Part shown: piece after piece, positions 4,800-22,401 of the stretch
Layout of the letters: the number at the start of each line of letters is the position of its first letter
Numbering within the stretch: the stretch's first letter is position 1
Virus record (IMG/VR): IMGVR_UViG_3300043602_000210
Coordinates: 1 to 22,401 of that record
Strand: one strand, 5' to 3'
Source of the DNA: a virus
DNA length: 22,401 bases
The notes under the pieces: generated by a model
Database searches by the model: none
Told to the model about the DNA's origin: nothing
Seen by the model: only the letters and a program-made list of their open reading frames with translations
Made by a program: the position numbers and the translations under genes

Positions 4800-5081
4800 A
4801 TGAGCAGAACGCGACGACAGCGCAAGCGGTCGGAGCCGTGGCGGCACAACGTGGTCCTGGCGATGGTGCACGTCATGCGCGGCACCGCGCCACGGATCGC
4901 CGAAGCCTGCGGCATTAATCGCGAGACCGTGTGGCTCTGGGAGCAAGTGCCGGCGAAGCACGTTCTCACCATCGAGCAGCTCCTGGAAATCCCGCGTCAC
5001 CTGATCAGACCTGACATCTATCCGCCGCCGCATGAGGCCGCGACTCAACGGTGGCTCACCAACAACGGGAGAACAACATGA
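4800..5081 (+). CDS. Cro/YdaS-like helix-turn-helix regulator
   Basis: A 93-aa basic protein and first gene of the rightward operon. A helix-turn-helix is visible at about residues 30-50, with PRIAEACGINRETVWLWEQV as a degenerate recognition unit. It is followed by IPRHLIRPDIYP (65-75). The RPDIYP ending is typical of YdaS/Cro-type regulators, which bind early operators and sit divergent to the repressor or leftward genes. The ATG at 4800 directly follows GAGG; a GTG at 4794 has AGGA 7 nt upstream and is an equally good start, adding two residues. Further upstream starts run into non-conserved sequence. Its stop overlaps the next gene's ATG. It probably controls one or both divergent operons. 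No CI partner is visible. Confidence 0.75.
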   Translation: MSRTRRQRKRSEPWRHNVVLAMVHVMRGTAPRIAEACGINRETVWLWEQVPAKHVLTIEQLLEIPRHLIRPDIYPPPHEAATQRWLTNNGRTT

Positions 5082-5452
5082 CGCTAGAGTCTGACGGCAA
5101 GCAGCTCGACAAATACCTACGCGAGATCGACAAGGCCGACGATCGGCTGATCAAGCTCAAGGTTGAGCACATGGACGCGTGCAAGGGTCCGCGCGGGCAA
5201 ATTCGCAATATCATGAAGGAAGCGCGTGAGCGCGGCGTCAACATGGAGGCTTTGCGCACGATCGTCGCCAAGCACCGCGCCGAGCGCAAGATCGAGCAGC
5301 GCATTGACGAGCTGGAAGCTGACGACCACAACGATTATGAATCCATGCTGGAAGCGCTCGGCGAATTCGGCGCTACCGACCTGGGCCAAGCCGCGCTGCG
5401 CAAGGCCAAGCCCAAAGGCGGCAGCGACAAGTTGGATTCGCTGCATTCGTGA
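5078..5452 (+). CDS. GapR-like (DUF2312-type) DNA-binding protein
   Basis: A 124-aa, highly charged helical protein with the GapR architecture. KQLDKYLREIDKADDRLIKL forms the first long helix. IRNIMKEARERGVNMEALRTI matches the GapR segment with EAKGNGFDTK(V/I). AERKIEQRIDELEADD leads into a last helix ending MLEALGEFG. GapR is an alphaproteobacterial chromatin protein that recognises overtwisted DNA and supports replication. A phage copy may organise replicating phage DNA or imitate host GapR. The start at 5078 was chosen because GGGAGA lies just upstream and the ATG overlaps the stop of the Cro-like gene; an upstream in-frame start would lie inside that gene. The C-terminal ATDLGQAALRKAKPKGGSD tail is extra relative to typical GapR. 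Confidence 0.8.
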   Translation: MTLESDGKQLDKYLREIDKADDRLIKLKVEHMDACKGPRGQIRNIMKEARERGVNMEALRTIVAKHRAERKIEQRIDELEADDHNDYESMLEALGEFGATDLGQAALRKAKPKGGSDKLDSLHS

Positions 5453-5456
5453 CCCA

Positions 5457-5588
5457 ATGTCAATCGCGGTCGCCAAGGGTGTCGTGATACCCAGAGAAAC
5501 TTTGCGACTGCGCGCGCCCGGCCAACGTCTGGTTGATGCCCAGTTGATCTGTGCCGGGCGCATCTTTTTAAAAAGCCGGGTGCCATGA
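5457..5588 (+). CDS. possible 43-aa micro-protein
   Basis: A short frame starting MSIAVAKGVVIPRETLRLRA and ending FLKSRVP. Its TGA overlaps the ATG of the winged-helix gene (ATGA), the same junction style used throughout this operon. It fills what would otherwise be a 130-nt gap. No ribosome site is obvious (only weak purines after the GapR-like stop), and I know no relatives. It could be a real coupled micro-gene or just a leader; a GC-rich inverted segment (GCGCGCGCCCGGCC) lies inside it. Confidence 0.35.
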   Translation: MSIAVAKGVVIPRETLRLRAPGQRLVDAQLICAGRIFLKSRVP

Positions 5589-5875
5589 CGGTCTGCCCGC
5601 ATTGTCACCAGCAAATTGCGCATGAGCGCCTAGGCGTGCGCCTGACGCCGCTCAAGGCTGCGATCGTCGACCGCATCAAGCGCGCCGGTGACCTCGGCAT
5701 CTCATCCGAGGGCCTCGTGCACGATCTGTATTTTGATCGCAAGCCGGTCAGCATGACCACGCTCAAGGCTCATGTCTTTCAGATCAACGACCTGCTTGAG
5801 CAAACCGACTGGGTGATCGCGTCGGATCGGCGGCGGTGGTTTCTAAGGCGACGGCGACGGAGCACAGCAGCATGA
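5585..5875 (+). CDS. small winged-helix protein with N-terminal CxxC
   Basis: A 96-aa protein. It begins with MTVCPHCHQ, a single CxxC that could be half of a zinc site. The body, LTPLKAAIVDRIKRAG to DWVIASDRRRWFL, follows the pattern of an OmpR/PhoB-type winged helix: helices ending with MTTLKAHVFQINDLLEQ as recognition helix, then a beta-hairpin wing. The tail is very basic (FLRRRRRSTAA). It probably binds DNA and acts as an early regulator. Its last codons (5825-5875) are present again as a relic at 6139-6186, beyond the next gene. Its stop overlaps a possible start at 5872 of the next frame. Confidence 0.75.
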   Translation: MTVCPHCHQQIAHERLGVRLTPLKAAIVDRIKRAGDLGISSEGLVHDLYFDRKPVSMTTLKAHVFQINDLLEQTDWVIASDRRRWFLRRRRRSTAA

Positions 5876-5901
5876 GCACTCGAAGGAGGAGGACACGTTC
5901 A

Positions 5902-6138
5902 ATGGATGCACATACCACAAACGGCAAAGCTTTGAAGTTTCGGTCCTTGGCGGAAAAGCGGGTGTCACTGGCTATGAAAAGCATTCGACGCATTGGCAAA
6001 CTTTCGCGTCGCGGTAGTTACGAATATGAGCCTGAGCAGATCGGAAAAATATTCACGGCGCTCCGCACAGAGATCGATGCGGCTGAGTCGCAATTTGTAT
6101 CTGACCGCGATCAGCTGCTGCTCTTTCGGCTGGATTGA
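5902..6138 (+). CDS. conserved small phage protein, 78 aa
   Basis: The product starts MDAHTTNGKALKFRSLAEKR, continues with VSLAMKSIRRIGKLSRRGSYEYEPEQIGKIFTAL and ends LLLFRLD. This pattern (FR-LAEKRV---MK-I--IG-LS-R--YEY) is common in small early proteins of alphaproteobacterial phages, with unknown function. The start was chosen because AAGGAGGAGG (5883-5892) is an excellent Shine-Dalgarno about 9 nt upstream. An in-frame ATG at 5872 overlaps the preceding stop and would add a basic MSTRRRRTRS leader. The gene lies between two copies of the winged-helix gene's 3' end, so it looks like an inserted cassette. Confidence 0.7.
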   Translation: MDAHTTNGKALKFRSLAEKRVSLAMKSIRRIGKLSRRGSYEYEPEQIGKIFTALRTEIDAAESQFVSDRDQLLLFRLD

Positions 6139-6186
6139 GATCGGCGGCGGTGGTTCCTGCGGCGGCGATCGAGGGCAGTAGCATGA
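6139..6186 (+). pseudogene. relic of winged-helix gene 3' end
   Basis: In the frame ending at TGA 6184-6186 this segment encodes DRRRWFLRRRSRAVA-stop. The intact winged-helix gene ends DRRRWFLRRRRRSTAA-stop (5825-5875). The first 17 bases are identical and later differences are largely synonymous or conservative. It is directly preceded by the stop of the 78-aa gene and ends at the ATGA of the ParB-like gene. It looks like the tail of an older allele left behind when winged-helix plus 78-aa gene were imported. Confidence 0.7.
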
Positions 6187-6785
6187 GTGAGATCAGAATT
6201 CACCCAGCGGCCGAGGCCTATCGCTTAATGACGGAGGATGAGCTTGCAAGCCTTGCTGAGGATATCAAGGCAAACGGCTTGCACGATCCGATCATCATCG
6301 GTCGAGTGAACGGCGCAGCTAGCGACGCCATAGCAGATGGGCGCAATCGCGAGCGAGCCTGTGAGATAGCCGGGATCGAACCGCGTTATGAGACGCGGCA
6401 ATTCAAGGACGAGGACGAGCTGATCGCTTTCATCAAGTCGCGCAGCGAGCGGCGCGACCTGACGAAAGGCCAGCGCGCGATGGGGCTGGCGCTGTTGTAT
6501 CCCGATCCGGAAAAGGGCGGGAAAGGTAAACGGTCTAAAATTCTAGACAGTTTAGATGGGAACCGAAAAGGTTGGAAAGACCGCCTTTCGCAAGCCCGCG
6601 CGGTTCTGCGCCACTCGCGCGAACTGGCACTGGCGGTACGCGACGGGACGATGGCACTCGACGAGGCGCTTGAGATCGTCAAGAAGGCCAAGCAGGCGAT
6701 CGAGAGCGACGAGACGCAGATAGCGCCGACGGCCGCTGATGACAATCCATTCAATGAAGAATCCGACCAAGAGATCGACGAATGA
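6183..6785 (+). CDS. ParB-like nuclease-domain protein
   Basis: A 200-aa protein with a ParB/Srx-type N-terminal domain. Visible are IHPAAEAYRLM, LASLAEDIKANGLHDPIII (helix then strand typical of ParB box I), DAIADGRNRERACEIAG with DGRNR at 52-56 (box II), and ELIAFIKSRSERRDLTKGQRAMGLALLYPDPEKGGKGK leading into a helical domain with HSRELALAVRDGTMALDEAL. The family is widespread in phages as a DNA-binding or putative nuclease protein. It ends in an acidic tail. The ATG at 6183 has GAGGG 8 nt upstream; extending further would absorb the winged-helix relic. The stop overlaps the next ATG. This is the second ParB-fold gene in the window, unrelated in sequence to the one at 3232-4254. Confidence 0.85.
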   Translation: MSEIRIHPAAEAYRLMTEDELASLAEDIKANGLHDPIIIGRVNGAASDAIADGRNRERACEIAGIEPRYETRQFKDEDELIAFIKSRSERRDLTKGQRAMGLALLYPDPEKGGKGKRSKILDSLDGNRKGWKDRLSQARAVLRHSRELALAVRDGTMALDEALEIVKKAKQAIESDETQIAPTAADDNPFNEESDQEIDE

Positions 6786-6973
6786 CCGACATTATTACGA
6801 CGGCCGATAAATTGGCTTGTGCGAAACGCGAACTCGCGATGCGCCGCAATGCGTACCCGCGCTGGATCGAGCAAAACAAAATGTCCGCAGGCAAGGCCGC
6901 GCACGAGATCGATTGCATGCGCGCGATCGTCGCCGATTACGAGGACGCGCTGGTCGAGGAGGCGGTCCCATGA
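6782..6973 (+). CDS. conserved small phage protein, 63 aa
   Basis: A 63-aa helical protein with CAKRELAMRRNAYPRWIEQN, GKAAHEIDCMRAIVADYE and an acidic end. I recognise this as a frequent small early protein in alpha- and other proteobacterial phages; no biochemical role is known. Both ends are ATGA overlaps (with the ParB-like gene and with the Cys-rich gene), so it is translationally coupled. Confidence 0.8.
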   Translation: MTDIITTADKLACAKRELAMRRNAYPRWIEQNKMSAGKAAHEIDCMRAIVADYEDALVEEAVP

Positions 6974-7446
6974 ACACAAAAGCAAACGCCAGCACCGGCC
7001 TGGAGCGGTGCGGTGCCGGCGGGGGATGCGCGCTTGGTACCCGCGCATCCCCAACGACCGACATTGCGACGACGTTTTGCCCGGCAACAATGTGCCCGTT
7101 GTTCGCGGCTGATGGCTCGCCTTGGACGGGCGACAAGAATTCCCGGTGCCCGCAGGCGCGCCCGTTGCCGATGCTTCCCGGCGGCGGCTGCGGCTGGTGG
7201 AAGGGCTTCGGCGGCTGCGGTTGCGACGGTGCGACGGCGGCACGTCAACAAATCGCCGACGTCGAGCGTCGCGGCGGCACTTTGCAAATTGGCCCGGTGC
7301 GACAAAAGCGCGGGCGCGCTGCGCCGCGCACTTTCGACTGCCCACGCGCCGACCATTGCCAATGGCAGCGCGAAGCCGGCGGCGCCCTCTGTCCGCCACG
7401 GCTCGCCTTGTCCAGGGGGATCGATCCCAAGGCGTGCGCATATTGA
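6970..7446 (+). CDS. cysteine-rich phage protein, 158 aa
   Basis: A 158-aa protein rich in Cys, Gly and basic residues. Cysteine motifs include ERCGAGGGCA, TFCPATMCPL, GGGCGWWKGFGGCGCDG, FDCPRADHCQWQRE and ALCPPR, ending DPKACAY. The spacing suggests several zinc or metal sites, and QQIADVERRGG is a helix between them. Similar hypothetical proteins with a DCPxAxxCQWQRE core occur in alphaproteobacterial phages. The ATG overlaps the previous stop (ATGA). The long leftward open frame antisense to this gene is a GC-driven shadow. Function unknown; nucleic-acid binding is plausible. Confidence 0.65.
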   Translation: MNTKANASTGLERCGAGGGCALGTRASPTTDIATTFCPATMCPLFAADGSPWTGDKNSRCPQARPLPMLPGGGCGWWKGFGGCGCDGATAARQQIADVERRGGTLQIGPVRQKRGRAAPRTFDCPRADHCQWQREAGGALCPPRLALSRGIDPKACAY

Positions 7447-7459
7447 GAGGAGTACCGCA

Positions 7460-8002
7460 TTGACCGACCTGCTCGCCCTCGACATCGCTTCAGTGACAGG
7501 ATGGGCGCGCGGCCCCGTCGGGCCCGACGGTCCTCGGTGCGGCTCGGTCCAGTTCGGCAAGACCGGCGCCTCACAGCTCGCCATCTGTGGCCACGCGCTC
7601 GAATGGGCGATCGACACCATCAAGCCGCCGCTGCCCGACATCGTGGCGATCGAGGACCTGCTGCCGCCGCACGTCACCCGCGGCAAGAGCAACGTCGACC
7701 ACGATCTGCTCGCGCACCTGCACGGCATCATCATGGCCGTGTGCTTCATGCGCGGCGTGTTCAAGGTCAACAAATATCCCGTGATGAGGATCCGCCGGCA
7801 CTTCATCGATCTCGGCTCCTGCGCAAAGGGCCAGGCCAAGGGGATGGTGCAGGATAAATGCCGACAGCTCGGCTGGCTCGCCGGTGACGATAACGACGCG
7901 GCCGATGCTTGCGCCTGCTGGAGCTTCGCCTGCAGCCTCATCGACCCACAACAGGCAGTGCGCATCTCGCCACTATTTCAAAGGGTAAGGGCGATCGCAT
8001 GA
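7460..8002 (+). CDS. RuvC-like Holliday junction resolvase
   Basis: The start is a TTG at 7460, with GAGAGGAG about 7 nt upstream; no ATG fits the family's N-terminus. The 180-aa product has the RuvC/RNase H fold acidic pattern: LLALDIASVTGWA (D8), DIVAIEDLL (E65) and GDDNDAADACACW (D146 and D149). Phage RuvC-like enzymes resolve branched DNA before packaging or during recombination. Some phage relatives have lost residues, but here all acidic positions seem present. Its 3' end (ISPLFQRVRAIA) is repeated with synonymous changes at 8104-8140. The stop overlaps the next ATG. Confidence 0.8.
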   Translation: MTDLLALDIASVTGWARGPVGPDGPRCGSVQFGKTGASQLAICGHALEWAIDTIKPPLPDIVAIEDLLPPHVTRGKSNVDHDLLAHLHGIIMAVCFMRGVFKVNKYPVMRIRRHFIDLGSCAKGQAKGMVQDKCRQLGWLAGDDNDAADACACWSFACSLIDPQQAVRISPLFQRVRAIA

Positions 8003-8304
8003 AAAGGTGGACAAAACCAAATCGAAATGCGGTCTACGGAGACCGCCGGAGCCCGGCCAGAGATGCGGTGATGCCCAAGGCGATCCTGCCGGGCTCCAAC
8101 TATCTCGCCGCTGTTTCAACGCGTGAGGGCCATCGCATGACCTCCTGGGCAATCGTTGAACTCGAACTGCGGCTGCACATGACAAACCTTTGCCTCGCCG
8201 TTCTCAGCAAGGAAGAGGGCAGACTCCGAGAGTGCAAGGATCTTCTGGTCGACAAGGTTTGTGAACTGATAGCCGCGGCAGAAGAGAAGGCGCCGTCGCA
8301 ATGA
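7999..8304 (+). CDS. small phage protein; two starts possible (7999 or 8137)
   Basis: The full frame gives 101 aa. The first 46 codons read through the relic of the RuvC tail, so the N-terminal part (MKRWTKPNRNAVYGDR...) is probably a fragment fused in frame by insertion. The original gene likely starts at 8137 (MTSWAIVELELRLHMTN), just after the relic's TGA overlap, giving 55 aa. That core is a charged helical protein (LSKEEGRLRECKDLLVDKV). It overlaps the zinc-ribbon gene by ATGA. Function unknown. Confidence 0.55.
   Translation: MKRWTKPNRNAVYGDRRSPARDAVMPKAILPGSNYLAAVSTREGHRMTSWAIVELELRLHMTNLCLAVLSKEEGRLRECKDLLVDKVCELIAAAEEKAPSQ
8104..8140 (+). pseudogene. relic of RuvC-like gene 3' end
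   Basis: Read in the frame ending at TGA 8138-8140, this segment encodes ISPLFQRVRAIA-stop. That is exactly the same peptide as the end of the intact RuvC-like gene (7966-8002), but with synonymous third-position changes in several codons (e.g. CCA/CCG, CTA/CTG, AGG/CGC, GTA/GTG). Similarity stops at the ATC codon. It ends at the ATGA start of MTSWAIV. This is evidence of two alleles rather than a fresh tandem duplication. Confidence 0.75.
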
Positions 8305-8483
8305 CCAAGATGCCATTCGTCTGCTCAAAAAATACGCCGTGGGTACCGTCAATGGGCACGCCAGTTGTTCATGTCGACGCTCATGAAGTCGGTGATCAGC
8401 GCAACGGCTGGCCTGGAGGTGATCTGGTCACCTATGAATGCCCGCATTGCGGCCATCGGTGGAGAGCGGAGTTGCCGCAGTGA
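8301..8483 (+). CDS. small zinc-ribbon phage protein, 60 aa
   Basis: A 60-aa protein starting MTKMPFVCSKNTPWVPSMG and ending in YECPHCGHRWRAELPQ. The CPHCG motif plus C8 could form a zinc ribbon. A similar short protein (VCSxNTP, GWPGGD, CPxCGHxW) is common in phages, with unknown role. ATGA overlap at the start; its TGA overlaps a GTG that begins a relic of the 61-aa MISW gene (8480). Confidence 0.7.
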   Translation: MTKMPFVCSKNTPWVPSMGTPVVHVDAHEVGDQRNGWPGGDLVTYECPHCGHRWRAELPQ

Positions 8484-8521
8484 TCTCCTGGCGCCACGTC
8501 ACGCAATGGACCCGTGAATGA
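8480..8521 (+). pseudogene. first 5' relic of the MISW gene (13 codons)
   Basis: GTG-initiated frame encoding (M)ISWRHVTQWTRE then TGA. The 28 bases at 8481-8508 are identical to 9892-9919 (second relic) and similar to 10437-10464 (start of the intact 61-aa gene). Its start overlaps the zinc-ribbon stop (GTGA) and its stop overlaps the methyltransferase ATG. Confidence 0.7.
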
Positions 8522-9894
8522 TCACGATCCGCCATGGCGACTGCCGTGATGTGCTGCGCGCGCTGGCGAGCGAGTCGGTACATTGCGTGGTGACCTCGCC
8601 ACCTTACTGGGGATTACGCGATTACGGCATCCCGCCGTCGATCTGGGGCGGCTCTGCGACGTGTGAGCATGAATGGATTGCTGAAGTTACCGCGCGTCCA
8701 AATTCCGGCGGCGGCGAAGGATTGGAACGCGATTACGGCGGGGCTGCTCAGTTCGCTCGCGAGAGCGGGCGCAAGACGACGGCGGCCGTTTGCTCATGTG
8801 GAGCATGGCGCGGCGTGCACGGCCTCGAGCCCACCTATCAGCTCTACGTCGAGAACGCCGTCGCGATCTTCCGCGAAGTCCGCCGCGTGTTGCGCAAGGA
8901 CGGGACGCTCTGGCTCAATCTCGGGGATAGCTATGCATCAAGCGGTGTGAGTGGAAAACAAAGCAACACGAGCCGACTAAGCCGTCATGGTTATAATGGC
9001 TTCAATCCAAAGATGGCTGATCAGGTGTTTGGTCGCGCACCAACTCCATTTGAATTAAAAACCAAGGACCTGATCGGCATCCCCTGGCGCGTCGCATTCG
9101 CGCTGCAAGCGGATGGGTGGTATCTCCGCCAGGACATCATCTGGTCGAAGCCCAACCCGATGCCCGAGAGCGTGCGCGACCGCTGCACGAAGGCGCATGA
9201 GTATCTGTTCCTGCTGAGCAAGAGCGAGCGGTATTACTACGATGGTGATGCGATCGCGGAACCGACATTGTCGCTTGATCCCGAGCATCCGAGCTTTCGA
9301 CCAAACAGCGCCGTGATCGCAGACGAGGGCCGTAAGGAATACAGCGCCAAACACAAAATGTCCGCGCGCTCCTACGATGCAGCGGGCCGCAACAAGCGCT
9401 CCGTCTGGACCGTGACAACGTGCCCTTACTCTGAAGCTCACTTCGCCACCTTCCCGCCGGCGCTGATCGAGCCGTGCATCATGGCCGGCACGAGCGAGAA
9501 GGGATGCTGTGCCAAATGCGGGGCGCCGTGGGTGCGGCAGGTCGAGCGAACGCGGACCAATCAAAGCGGATCTGGCCGCGCCGGCAATCCACCTGAAGGC
9601 AAGTGGGGGCTGACCGCGCAGCATGCAGGCACGATGCAAGACATCCGGATGGGGCCGACGATCTCAATTGAGACCATCGGCTGGTCGCCATCCTGCGCCT
9701 GCAACGCCGTTGCCGTTCCCTGCACCGTCCTCGACCCCTTCGCCGGCGCCGGCACGACCGGCCTGGTCGCCGACCGGCTCGGCCGCAACGCCATCCTGAT
9801 CGAGCTCAACCCGGACTATGTCGCAATGATCGAGCGGCGCATCAGCGCCGATGCCGGCATGTTCGCCCAGATATATTGCGAGGCCGCCGAATGA
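8518..9894 (+). CDS. orphan DNA methyltransferase, N4-cytosine/N6-adenine class
   Basis: A 458-aa beta-class amino-methyltransferase. Motif IV is TSPPYWGLRDYG (about 26-37) near the N-terminus, and the SAM-binding motif DPFAGAGTTG (406-415) with ILIELNPDY is near the C-terminus. This circular order, motif IV before motif I, defines the class. The SPPYW form is more common in N4-cytosine enzymes, but the base cannot be told by eye. Between them are LRKDGTLWLNLGDSYA and KPNPMPESVRDRCTKAHEYLFLL. Two Cys clusters (CSCGAW and GCCAKCGAPW) suggest zinc-binding inserts. No restriction gene is adjacent, so it probably protects phage DNA or alters expression. It is flanked by two relics of the MISW gene, indicating insertion. 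Confidence 0.9.
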   Translation: MITIRHGDCRDVLRALASESVHCVVTSPPYWGLRDYGIPPSIWGGSATCEHEWIAEVTARPNSGGGEGLERDYGGAAQFARESGRKTTAAVCSCGAWRGVHGLEPTYQLYVENAVAIFREVRRVLRKDGTLWLNLGDSYASSGVSGKQSNTSRLSRHGYNGFNPKMADQVFGRAPTPFELKTKDLIGIPWRVAFALQADGWYLRQDIIWSKPNPMPESVRDRCTKAHEYLFLLSKSERYYYDGDAIAEPTLSLDPEHPSFRPNSAVIADEGRKEYSAKHKMSARSYDAAGRNKRSVWTVTTCPYSEAHFATFPPALIEPCIMAGTSEKGCCAKCGAPWVRQVERTRTNQSGSGRAGNPPEGKWGLTAQHAGTMQDIRMGPTISIETIGWSPSCACNAVAVPCTVLDPFAGAGTTGLVADRLGRNAILIELNPDYVAMIERRISADAGMFAQIYCEAAE

Positions 9895-9974
9895 TCTCCT
9901 GGCGCCACGTCACGCAATGCGCGCGCTATGTCCCGCACGAGCGCGCCGAGGATTACTGCCGAGATTGGAGGTGA
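9891..9974 (+). pseudogene. second 5' relic of the MISW gene (27 codons)
   Basis: ATG overlapping the methyltransferase stop, encoding MISWRHVTQCARYVPHERAE and then DYCRDWR before TGA. Compared with the intact gene at 10436 (MISWRHVTKYTRYVPYHLAE, DYSRLGW) it is clearly homologous but diverged and truncated at the HNH gene's ribosome site (GGAGGTGA). It could still be translated as a 27-aa peptide. Confidence 0.7.
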
Positions 9975-9977
9975 ACC

Positions 9978-10439
9978 ATGCTTACATTAGGCCGATTGAA
10001 ACAGCTTTTAGAATATTCACCGGGCGACGGTGTTTTTGTCTGGCGTGTCAACCGCAGAGGACGCTTTGCGAGGACTGGCGAAGTTGCCGGCAAGTTGAAT
10101 GATCACGGCTACATCAGGATAGGGATCGACGGGCGCATATATTTGGCCCACCGCCTCGCGTGGTTCTATTGCCATGGAGAATGGCCCCTCGGCGGCATGG
10201 ACCACGCAAACGGAATGCCAACCGACAACAGAATTGCGAACCTTCGGTTAGCAACACCCTCGCAAAATGTCGCCAACTCTCGCGCACGTAATAGCGCCCG
10301 GCTAAAGGGGGCTTATTACAAACCCAAGATGATGGGACCTTCCACCGTGTTTGATTTGGGAGAGACAGCGGAGGCTGCAAATGCAGCTTACATGGCCGCG
10401 GCAAGGGAAGCCTTTGGCGTCTTTGCGAGGGCCAAATGA
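9978..10439 (+). CDS. HNH homing-type endonuclease with shortened AP2-like C-terminus
   Basis: A 153-aa protein. The HNH core is visible: YLAHRLAWFYCHGEWPLGGMDHANGM (H58, D75-H76), then PTDNRIANLRLATPSQNVAN (N84, N88). The C-terminus (GAYYKPKMMGPSTVF, then AEAANAAYMAAAREAFGVFA) resembles the AP2 DNA-binding domain of HNH-AP2 homing endonucleases but is about ten residues short in the middle. Such enzymes move themselves between phage genomes. A near-ideal Shine-Dalgarno (GGAGGTGA, 9967-9974) precedes the ATG. The gene sits between a relic and the intact MISW gene, as expected of a free-standing homing endonuclease that inserted there. Confidence 0.85.
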   Translation: MLTLGRLKQLLEYSPGDGVFVWRVNRRGRFARTGEVAGKLNDHGYIRIGIDGRIYLAHRLAWFYCHGEWPLGGMDHANGMPTDNRIANLRLATPSQNVANSRARNSARLKGAYYKPKMMGPSTVFDLGETAEAANAAYMAAAREAFGVFARAK

Positions 10440-10621
10440 TCTCCTGGCGACATGTAACAAAGTACACCCGGTATGTCCCATACCATCTCGCCGAAGATTA
10501 TTCTCGTTTGGGCTGGTGCGTCAGCGACGCATTCGATGGCACCCCACATGCGGCCTATTCGGTCCTTTGCGCCTGGCTGTGCAAGTGCACGCCGGTTGAG
10601 CCGCGGGAGCCGCGGCCATGA
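10436..10621 (+). CDS. intact 61-aa MISW phage protein
   Basis: A 61-aa protein starting MISWRHVTKYTRYVPYHLAE and ending CKCTPVEPREPRP. It is rich in W, Y and C. I recognise similar short proteins with MISWRHV...YVP...AEDY...GW in alphaproteobacterial phages; no function is known. The start overlaps the HNH stop (ATGA) and the stop overlaps the next gene's ATG. Two truncated copies of its 5' end (8480, 9891) and a second copy of its last codons (11212-11238) surround neighbouring inserted genes. Confidence 0.65.
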   Translation: MISWRHVTKYTRYVPYHLAEDYSRLGWCVSDAFDGTPHAAYSVLCAWLCKCTPVEPREPRP

Positions 10622-11238
10622 CGATTGCGGCATTGTTCGTCGAAACCGATGGAGTCTACTTCGGTTTGCCAAACGTGGACCCGTGGGACCGTGGGCGAGA
10701 TGCACGGACTTATGCCGGGCCGTGGCCGGTTATTGCGCACCCGCCGTGCGAACGCTGGGGGCGTTACTGGGGCGGGGCGCCCTGGCAGACCGAGCGCAAG
10801 AAGCTGGGCGACGATTGGGGCTGCTTTGCTGCAGCACTGGCTGCCGTCCGTGAATTTGGCGGCGTGATCGAGCACCCGGAAGCCAGCCATGCCTGGAGTC
10901 ATCACGGCCTGAATGCACCACCGCGCGGAGGCGGCTGGGTGTTCGCGGACTTCGTTGGCGGATGGACCTGCTGCGTCGAGCAGGGCAATTACGGACATCG
11001 GGCGCGCAAGGCGACCTGGCTTTATGCTCACGGCATCGACTTGCCTTCACTGAAATGGGGCCGCGCGCCCGGCAGCTTCAACCTGCTCGACGAGGGGTTC
11101 CATTCAAAAGAAGAGAGAGCGCGCAAGATCAAGACGGGCATTTGCCAGAGATTGTCTGCCCGGCAATGCAGGGCCACTCCGGTCGAATTCCGTGACTTGC
11201 TGATTTCGATGGTCGAGCCGCGGGAGCTGCGGCCATGA
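10618..11238 (+). CDS. conserved phage protein with HPPC motif
   Basis: A 206-aa protein. Conserved-looking segments are ALFVETDGVYFGLPNVDPWD, WPVIAHPPCERWGRYW, GCFAAALAAVREFGGVIEHPEASHAW, LNAPPRGGGWVFADF, GWTCCVEQGNYGHRARKATWLYA and a PVEFRDLLISM end. This is a known phage protein family without an assigned activity. The HPPC loop resembles the catalytic PC loop of cytosine-5 methyltransferases or related phage proteins, but no SAM-binding motif is evident, so I do not call it an enzyme. The final VEPRELRP repeats the tail of the preceding MISW protein (VEPREPRP). ATGA overlaps at both ends. Confidence 0.7.
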   Translation: MTIAALFVETDGVYFGLPNVDPWDRGRDARTYAGPWPVIAHPPCERWGRYWGGAPWQTERKKLGDDWGCFAAALAAVREFGGVIEHPEASHAWSHHGLNAPPRGGGWVFADFVGGWTCCVEQGNYGHRARKATWLYAHGIDLPSLKWGRAPGSFNLLDEGFHSKEERARKIKTGICQRLSARQCRATPVEFRDLLISMVEPRELRP

Positions 11239-13635: not shown

Positions 13636-14170
13636 GTCTTTCTTAATTGGCGCAGAACTGGCGCAAACACTGGCGCAGACTGGCGCAGACTGGCGCAGGA
13701 AGTGCCCCCCCTTGACAAGGGTGCGCCAGTTGTTTATGGGGCCCCTCCCCCCAGGAGGGGGCCTCCCCATAAAAACATGCTACGCTTGGCGCGCCCTTCT
13801 CAATGGGGCTGGCACATACTGGCGCAAACCGCTGCGCCATGCGCCTTTCCGCCCAGTCGTCGCTTCAGCGAAGCATCAAAAAAGTCAAAAAAGAACTGGC
13901 GCAACAACTGGCGCAGACTGGCGGAAACCTCGATCCCATGCGGGTTTCTTTACGGTCAGACTGGCACACTGCCGGACTGGAGCAGCGCGACAGGCGCGAA
14001 AAAAATGCAAGCGCATCTCGTGGTTGATACTCGGAAATCCCGGATCAGTCCTGCCGCCGCGCCAGGGTCGATCCACACGCAAGCGCGCGGTTCAGCGAGT
14101 CACCCGTTCAAGGCTGCCGACGCGCGCACCAGCCCCAGCGGAGCTTGTTAAGGTTCGGGAGCGAAAATGA
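13622..14170 (+). CDS. open frame across the repeat region, doubtful gene
   Basis: A 182-codon frame begins 14 nt inside the primase-helicase gene and ends in an ATGA overlap with the next frame. The translation is low-complexity, basic and repetitive (ELAQTLAQTGADWRRK and TGATTGADWRKP derive from the DNA repeats). All three rightward frames are open over much of this GC-rich stretch. I think the DNA is selected as a repeat/origin region rather than as protein. The coupled stop at 14168-14170 is the only argument for translation. Confidence 0.25.
   Translation: MTMTESFLIGAELAQTLAQTGADWRRKCPPLTRVRQLFMGPLPPGGGLPIKTCYAWRALLNGAGTYWRKPLRHAPFRPVVASAKHQKSQKRTGATTGADWRKPRSHAGFFTVRLAHCRTGAARQARKKCKRISWLILGNPGSVLPPRQGRSTRKRAVQRVTRSRLPTRAPAPAELVKVRERK
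13648..13968. repeat. TGGCGCA iteron-like cluster, candidate replication origin
   Basis: TGGCGCA occurs in direct orientation at 13648, 13659, 13671, 13681, 13691, 13820, 13897 and 13909, and inverted (TGCGCCA) at 13722 and 13833. Variants are TGGCACA at 13810 and 13962 and TGGCGGA at 13919. The first five copies are spaced 10-12 bp. A large hairpin lies in the middle. Iterons directly after the primase-helicase gene are a typical phage or plasmid origin layout. The same core is seen in the control region at 4576 and 4691. Alternatives are regulator binding sites. Confidence 0.6.
13733..13773. terminator. large GC-rich hairpin (terminator or origin structure)
   Basis: TTTATGGGG (13733-13741) plus CCCCTCC (13742-13748) pair with GGAGGGG (13754-13760) and CCCCATAAA (13765-13773), leaving a 5-nt loop and a 4-nt bulge. 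That is 16 bp in total, with T-rich and A-rich ends as in a bidirectional terminator. It lies inside the repeat cluster, so an origin role is equally possible. A TTGACA at 13712 lies just upstream. Confidence 0.5.
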
Positions 14171-21188: not shown

Positions 21189-22401
21189 TGCGCATCTTCG
21201 GCTTGCCGGTCCCGTTCACCGGCGAGAAGCAGAAAGCATTGAACTCGGTGCCGACAGGCGGCGGCTGGTATCCCATCATCCGCGAGCTATACGCCGGCGC
21301 CTGGCAGCGCAACGTCACCATCAATTACGACACTGCGGCGACGTTCCATGCCGACTTCGCGTGCAAGACGCTGATCGCACGCGACATCGCCAAGCTGCGC
21401 GTCAAGCTCGTCGAGGAGGACGACAACGACATTTGGAGCGAGACAACCAATCCGGCATTCTCGCCGGTGCTTCGTCGCCCAAACGATTACCAGACAAGAA
21501 ATCAATTCTGGGAATGCTGGCTGCTCTCGAAACTCAGCCGCGGCAACACCTACGTTCTCAAGGAGCGCGATAACCGTCAGGTCGTCACTGCCCTGCACGT
21601 CCTCGATCCGACCAGGGTGCAGCCGCTCATCGCCGACGACGAGAGCGTGTTCTACCGCCTGAGCACCGACAACCTCGCCGGCATTGATACGGATATCATC
21701 GTGCCGGCGCGCGAGATCATTCACGACCGCATGAACTGCCTATTTCATCCGCTGGTCGGCACGCCGCCGGTGTTCGCGAGCGGCTTGTCCTCAATGCTCG
21801 GGATCAATGCGCAGAATGCCTCCGCCTTGTTGTTCGAAAACAGCTCGACGCCCGGCGGCATCATCACTGCGCCCGGGAATATCGACTCGGTCGAGCAGGA
21901 TCGGTTCAAGACGGAATGGGAGGCCAGGTTCATGCGCGGCAATCGCGGCCGCGTCGCGATCTTGGGTGGCGGGCTGAAATACGAGCGGGTTTCGATGACC
22001 AACGTTGAGGGGCAGTTGATCGAGTCGCTGAAATGGTCGGCCGAGGTCGTGTGCTCAGTCTACCATGTGCCGCCGTACAAGGTCGGTGTCGGTGCATTGC
22101 CATCGTACACCAACGTTCAGGCGCTCAACGTCGAATATTATTCGCAGGCGCTGCAAAGCCACATCGAAGAGATCGAGGAGCTGCTCGATTACGGGCTCGG
22201 CCTTGGTGGGAGCAGCCTCGGCACCGAGTTCGATACCGAAACGCTGCTGCGCATGGATACCACGACGTTGGTGACGACCCTTCGCGATGCGGTCGGCGCC
22301 GGTGTCATGTCGCCGAACGAAGGTCGCAGCAAGCTCGACCTCAAGCCGGTCAAGGGCGGCGAGTCGCCGTACCTGCAGCAGCAGAATTATTCGCTCGCCG
22401 C
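21188..22401 (+). CDS. HK97-type portal protein (3' end beyond window)
   Basis: About 404 codons open to the right edge. It begins MRIFGLPVPFTGEKQKALNS and shows GGGWYPIIRELYAGAWQRN, TAATFHADFACKTLIARDIA, FWECWLLSKLSRGNTYVLKE, HVLDPTRVQPLIADD, IIHDRMNCLFHPLVGTPPVF, and LKYERVSMTNVEGQLIESLK, VCSVYHVPPYKVG. These are hallmark HK97-family portal segments. The portal forms the dodecameric DNA entry ring. It is coupled to the small head gene by TGATG. It follows rather than precedes the protease-capsid gene, unlike the HK97 order. Confidence 0.93.
   Translation, partial: MRIFGLPVPFTGEKQKALNSVPTGGGWYPIIRELYAGAWQRNVTINYDTAATFHADFACKTLIARDIAKLRVKLVEEDDNDIWSETTNPAFSPVLRRPNDYQTRNQFWECWLLSKLSRGNTYVLKERDNRQVVTALHVLDPTRVQPLIADDESVFYRLSTDNLAGIDTDIIVPAREIIHDRMNCLFHPLVGTPPVFASGLSSMLGINAQNASALLFENSSTPGGIITAPGNIDSVEQDRFKTEWEARFMRGNRGRVAILGGGLKYERVSMTNVEGQLIESLKWSAEVVCSVYHVPPYKVGVGALPSYTNVQALNVEYYSQALQSHIEEIEELLDYGLGLGGSSLGTEFDTETLLRMDTTTLVTTLRDAVGAGVMSPNEGRSKLDLKPVKGGESPYLQQQNYSLA

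Follow-up and report, generated by a model that had tools for sequence, protein, structure and literature searches.

It has long been asked how phages acquire single genes while leaving tightly overlapping neighbors unbroken, and the joints of mosaic genomes rarely retain enough sequence to separate homologous from illegitimate exchange. In the Cluster I mycobacteriophage Island3, an extra 85-codon gene 68 follows gene 67, with ~60 bp common to both 3' ends, and the only copy in its relative Brujita is recombinant between them (PMC3029335). From this one case, Pope et al. (2011) were unable to decide between intramolecular deletion and intermolecular gain (PMC3029335). The start-associated sequences (SAS/ESAS) of Cluster K mycobacteriophages are short repeats upstream of start codons that were proposed as targets of homologous recombination (Pope et al. 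2011, PMC3203893). They share a single conserved sequence that recurs at numerous genes, and 17-bp inverted repeats accompany half of them (PMC3203893). On a broader scale, phage mosaicism has been ascribed to relaxed homologous recombination by Rad52-like recombinases, with a minimum of ~30 bp for Red-beta (De Paepe et al. 2014, PMC3945230).

Here, a 22,401-bp IMG/VR virus record of an uncultivated phage (the window; G000 where phages are compared) was analyzed, in which the end of one gene recurs on the far side of the gene that follows it. The kind of scar is already known from Island3/Brujita; what is new is its presence at many sites in one phage group, together with evidence for an intermolecular origin. 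Island3/Brujita is one case, whereas several sites are seen here and their allele matches favor intermolecular gain.

The repeated segment is the final 51 nt (5825-5875) of a gene for a small, 96-aa winged-helix protein (5585-5875, + strand), and it is present again at 6139-6186, across the inserted gene C78 (5872-6138, + strand). Aligned together with their junction bases, copy 1 (5825-5876) and copy 2 (6139-6187; both + strand) span 52 columns with a single 3-nt gap, within the 50-60 bp of shared 3' end that characterizes the Island3/Brujita type, and a blastn search within the window recovers the pair at E ~1e-5. The alignment score of 31 lies well above those of 3,000 dinucleotide shuffles (mean 13.5, sd 2.0, maximum 23.5), which bears out the recurrence across a 78-aa gene claimed in the first-pass annotation. 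A common low-complexity Arg-rich repeat spread elsewhere would undermine that claim. However, the tail occurs only twice in the window and is not such a dispersed repeat, since, with identical scoring, the true copy reaches 32 and the next-best window position only 20.5. When IMG/VR was searched with a 20-nt core pattern, one genuine relative was found (IMGVR_3300043611_000020, or G001), which has both copies; the remaining 12 matches are unrelated reading frames.

Copy 1 is the genuine 3' terminus of the winged-helix gene with its ATGAG junction, and the gene's TGA (5873-5875) overlaps the ATG at 5872. Copy 2 (TTCCTGCGGCGGCGATCGAGGGCAGTAGCATGAG) starts at the base right after the C78 stop codon (TGA, 6136-6138), in the same frame, and its own TGA (6184-6186) overlaps the ATG at 6183 of a 200-aa ParB-like gene (6183-6785, + strand), so that the orphan tail does end on that gene's ATGA, as had been noticed previously. 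It also holds the likely Shine-Dalgarno sequence of the ParB-like gene, GAGGG. The two copies encode DRRRWFLRRRRRSTAA and DRRRWFLRRRSRAVA, respectively, each followed by a stop. As in SAS, a short repeated sequence thus stands just before start codons; unlike SAS, the sequence differs between the sites described below and derives at each from a neighboring gene. In contrast to Island3, the tail is separated from C78 by a stop codon, although in-frame fusions are seen in a 206-aa gene of the window and in the gene at 1467-1940 of another phage contig (L061).

An AlphaFold2 model of the 96-aa protein, built on eight relatives (mean pLDDT 82), predicts three helices followed by a two-strand wing (strands 76-81 and 84-89). 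Foldseek matches this model to OmpR-type DNA-binding domains and to ScpB (TM ~0.6-0.7, best E 2e-3), and with such a predicted fold "winged-helix" appears to be a fair name. The repeated segment starts at Asp81 and comprises the second wing strand and the C-terminus; it is therefore unable to fold alone. Ten relatives were found in IMG/VR, all ending in SDRR.WFLR or a close variant, with 82-83% identity in G001 and in IMGVR_3300020016_000008 (G002) and 54-60% in the others. Nine of the 10 records contain one winged-helix match, and the tenth contains one frame-broken gene. In most of the distant relatives inspected in detail, the gene is followed by a VRR-NUC-like gene (as read from translations), and none of those inspected has a second tail downstream. 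INPHARED phages gave no winged-helix match. Scans of GTDB genome contigs with winged-helix and C78 alignments likewise gave nothing, although host prophages may be missed because few short peptide patterns were used.

The ParB label of the 200-aa gene is weak, its ParB_N match (E 2.9e-4) being below the Pfam cutoff. Relatives of this gene are present in four other contigs, with a different upstream neighbor in each. C78 encodes 78 aa if translated from the ATG at 5902, which has its own strong Shine-Dalgarno sequence (AAGGAGGAGG), or 88 aa from an alternative open start at 5872. It has no Pfam, PHROG or NCBIfam match. It occurs in only three phages (G000, G001 and G002), with distant relatives on rhizobial plasmids that have no winged-helix neighbor. 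In INPHARED, no DNA match was found to positions 5000-7500 of the window, and the C78 and ParB matches were weak only.

Several familiar sources of an inserted gene were considered and rejected. C78 and copy 2 share a frame with one stop between them, and C78 could be read as a degenerate winged-helix paralogue with copy 2 as its own tail, for which profile comparison gave a probability of 0.1%. A transposon with a target-site duplication does not fit a gene that has no family match and no terminal inverted repeats and whose flanks differ, nor does insertion by a homing endonuclease fit one that lies outside the nuclease families. A different scar site does have an HNH gene (9978-10439), which may be relevant at that site. 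An integron would place a common attC-like recombination site behind every cassette, but scars at different sites share nothing beyond a Shine-Dalgarno sequence and ATGA.

G001 has the same C78/copy-2 joint as the window. DNA identity between these two phages is 77.5% (186/240) in the winged-helix body; it jumps to 51/51 across the tail and to 89.5% across C78, which indicates that the tail travels with C78. The joint is followed directly by the ParB-like gene in the window, whereas in G001 copy 2 has lost one base and runs into another small gene before ParB, with GGAGGG kept before the start codon. G002 has C78 without copy 2 and with other sequence behind it, and its winged-helix tail is chimeric, copy-2-like in its first part and copy-1-like in its last. 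The locus thus resembles Island3/Brujita in insert size, in insert position and in a chimeric single copy, although G002, which has that single copy, carries C78. No close relative that lacks only C78 is known, and no more than three phages carry this gene; a single-copy relative without the insert is found at two of the sibling sites described below.

In the first 10 codons, copies 1 and 2 differ at 5 nt, and none of these differences alters an amino acid in the winged-helix frame (P ~0.003 for unconstrained change, from five changes only, in Arg-rich codons). Copy 2 is no gene now and yet looks constrained, which suggests that it once ended a working gene, and the all-synonymous differences make it look like the tail of another phage's allele. 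Copy 2 is therefore probably the end of another phage's winged-helix allele and not a copy of the window's own. The first-pass annotation had assigned the repeat to the same scar type as those at the RuvC and MISW junctions; that grouping is supported, but the leftover probably did not come from the window's own gene.

At all of these junctions, partial copies of neighboring genes at stop/start overlaps bracket a variable insert. At the RuvC site, the authentic gene end (copy 1, 7965-8002) is followed by an orphan tail (copy 2, 8103-8140) behind a 100-bp hairpin element. By sequence comparison, the orphan matches the intact RuvC ends of G001, G002 and G013 at 35/37 positions and the window's own at 31/37. 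Two orphan heads of the MISW gene precede the intact gene (10436-10621, 61 aa, ending in VEPREPRP and a stop). The second, before the HNH gene (9891-9956), matches the intact G002 MISW gene at 60/66 positions and the window's own at 49/66. The first (8480-8517) is a 13-codon ORF that ends on the ATGA of a methyltransferase gene. An ORF of this kind (MISWRHVTQW...) stands before the methyltransferase in G000, G002 and L061, and it is possibly a leader for coupled translation. The end of the MISW gene (VEPRE tail copy 1 with ATGA, 10594-10621) also recurs, at 11211-11238, where copy 2 forms the in-frame end of the 206-aa gene. This orphan matches the uninterrupted junction of the MISW gene and the next gene in G002 at 28/28 positions and its own counterpart at 26/28, a difference of two bases. 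(All features of these sites lie on the + strand.) The 206-aa gene itself ends in VEPRELRP and a stop, a MISW-gene tail joined to an unrelated protein. Uninterrupted junctions were found only at sibling sites, for RuvC in G001 and G002 and for VEPRE in G002.

Similar repeats are found in the other phages. Those that share the stop/start overlap number two in the window, two in G001, one in G002, three in L061 (7.8 kb) and one in eight distant relatives together. In L061, the C-terminal tail of RuvC is present three times behind the methyltransferase (1392-1470, 1907-1941 and 2257-2291), each time on the ATGA of a different gene, and the gene at 1467-1940 ends in ...PLFNRVRAIA and a stop, the RuvC tail in frame. 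Taken site by site, the allele argument is strong at RuvC and at MISW, moderate at the winged-helix tail and weak at VEPRE. Since orphan ends resemble pieces of other phages' genes, they appear to record gene swapping between phages and not a local copying accident. At several joints here, the allele type of the retained gene fragments points toward the other parent, something that Island3/Brujita could not show. If this proves true in more genomes, orphan gene ends would reveal the direction and the partners of gene gain.

We consider it likely that copy 2 is the scar of an out-of-register exchange at a gene joint, in which two related phages recombined. The winged-helix gene and C78 would have come from one parent; the other would have had a winged-helix allele of its own with the ParB-like gene behind it, an order that we infer. 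The right-hand joint, where little sequence is shared, would have connected the C78 stop to the interior of the winged-helix gene from the second parent, of which only the last 16 codons would remain before ParB. A winged-helix gene directly followed by a ParB-like gene, the arrangement that the first-pass annotation proposed looking for and that the second parent should have had, was absent from IMG/VR, INPHARED and the GTDB contigs at the sensitivity used; the phage group is small, and its records are incomplete.

Random out-of-register exchange is expected to give both deletions and duplications, and presumably selection lets the duplications survive. For an insertion between ATGA-overlapping genes to spare the function of both, each side of the insert would need the overlap. 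Out-of-register joints would survive because the overlap is duplicated and not deleted: the upstream gene retains its end, and the ribosome-binding site of the downstream gene is retained as well. Neighboring genes here overlap by ATGA, the downstream Shine-Dalgarno sequence sits in the end of the upstream gene, and a Shine-Dalgarno-like GGAG, GAGGG or GGGAG precedes the ATG in each tail scar. That the tail scars hold this sequence for the downstream gene is a likely reason for their persistence. Both selection for the Shine-Dalgarno sequence and involvement of a recombinase are what we infer from these arrangements.

The window encodes a RecE/exonuclease VIII-like protein (542-1561, - strand; DUF3799, phrog_412), for which no partner annealing protein was identified in the window, and G001 encodes a YqaJ/RecE-like exonuclease. 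Scars of 30-80 bp might then serve as homology for further cassette exchange by the phage's own recombination functions, since the Red-beta minimum of ~30 bp makes scars of such length usable in later exchanges. Exchange between diverged phages and scar lengths within reach of Red-beta are consistent with the mosaicism described by De Paepe et al. (2014). That study scored exchange in register; the present scars lie out of register, and partial gene copies remain at them.

Among the alternatives, local tandem duplication fares best, although we regard it as unlikely. The window's own winged-helix tail would have been copied as C78 inserted, through a long target-site duplication or a template switch, and would later have diverged. 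The tail-insert-tail geometry is that of a target-site duplication, and the winged-helix site, taken alone, is compatible with it. However, the differences in the first 10 codons are all synonymous even though copy 2 encodes nothing now, the sibling orphan copies are closer to other phages' alleles than to the copy beside them, and C78 has neither a transposase nor inverted repeats at its ends. Less probable still is that the entire winged-helix gene was duplicated in tandem and that C78 later took the place of all but the tail of the second copy. Such a history would also give a coding-constrained second tail, and ParB and winged-helix genes do lie close together in some phages (L008 and L009), but none of the 10 records has two winged-helix genes, and the same two-step history would be required at every sibling scar. 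That the tails are functional translation-start modules spread by selection, like start-associated sequences, with their origin as gene ends secondary, is very improbable: each tail scar does have a Shine-Dalgarno sequence and a terminal start codon, and three different L061 genes have the RuvC tail before them, but the sequences are site-specific and match particular neighboring genes, the MISW scars are gene heads and not start modules of the same kind, and no common motif was seen beyond the Shine-Dalgarno sequence and ATGA.

Beyond the favored reading, in which copy 2 is left from out-of-register recombination between two phages, a more speculative extension is that the duplicated gene ends of this phage group are reusable exchange handles. 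The early region would then be an array of cassettes, each a tail or head with a cargo gene or a hairpin element, shuffled by the phage's own RecE-type recombination. The RuvC tail before three L061 genes and the unit of hairpin element and RuvC tail at differing places are as expected under this tentative scheme. By analogy, the shuffling might be integron-like but would involve neither a dedicated integrase nor a common site, a comparison that we also offer as no more than tentative.

The hairpin element at the RuvC site belongs to a dispersed twin-hairpin family with the structure GCGCCCGGCA-N9-TGGGCATCA-N9-TGGCCGGGCGC then GCGGTCGCA-N9-TGGGCATCA-N9-TGGCGACCGC. Across 16 copies, the scaffold hardly varies, in contrast to the four 9-nt stretches, each of which is hypervariable. 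The window contains one element at 5467-5562 and a shortened one at 8031-8098 (- strand). In G001, copies are found at 22246, 22356, 24554, 25681 and 33347, and G002 has five tandem copies at 38248-38729, plus others. The element is present in G000, G001, G002, G011 and G013 and absent from three distant relatives tested, and Rfam gave no match in the window, this element included. It looks more unusual than the scar. Element and RuvC tail also form a shared unit, at 8031-8140 in the window and at 2163-2290 in L061, with 79% identity and at differing positions. Finally, iteron-like repeats of CTGGCGCAGA were observed at 13654-13700 and 13892-13928, just behind a primase-polymerase/helicase gene, and possibly mark a replication origin.
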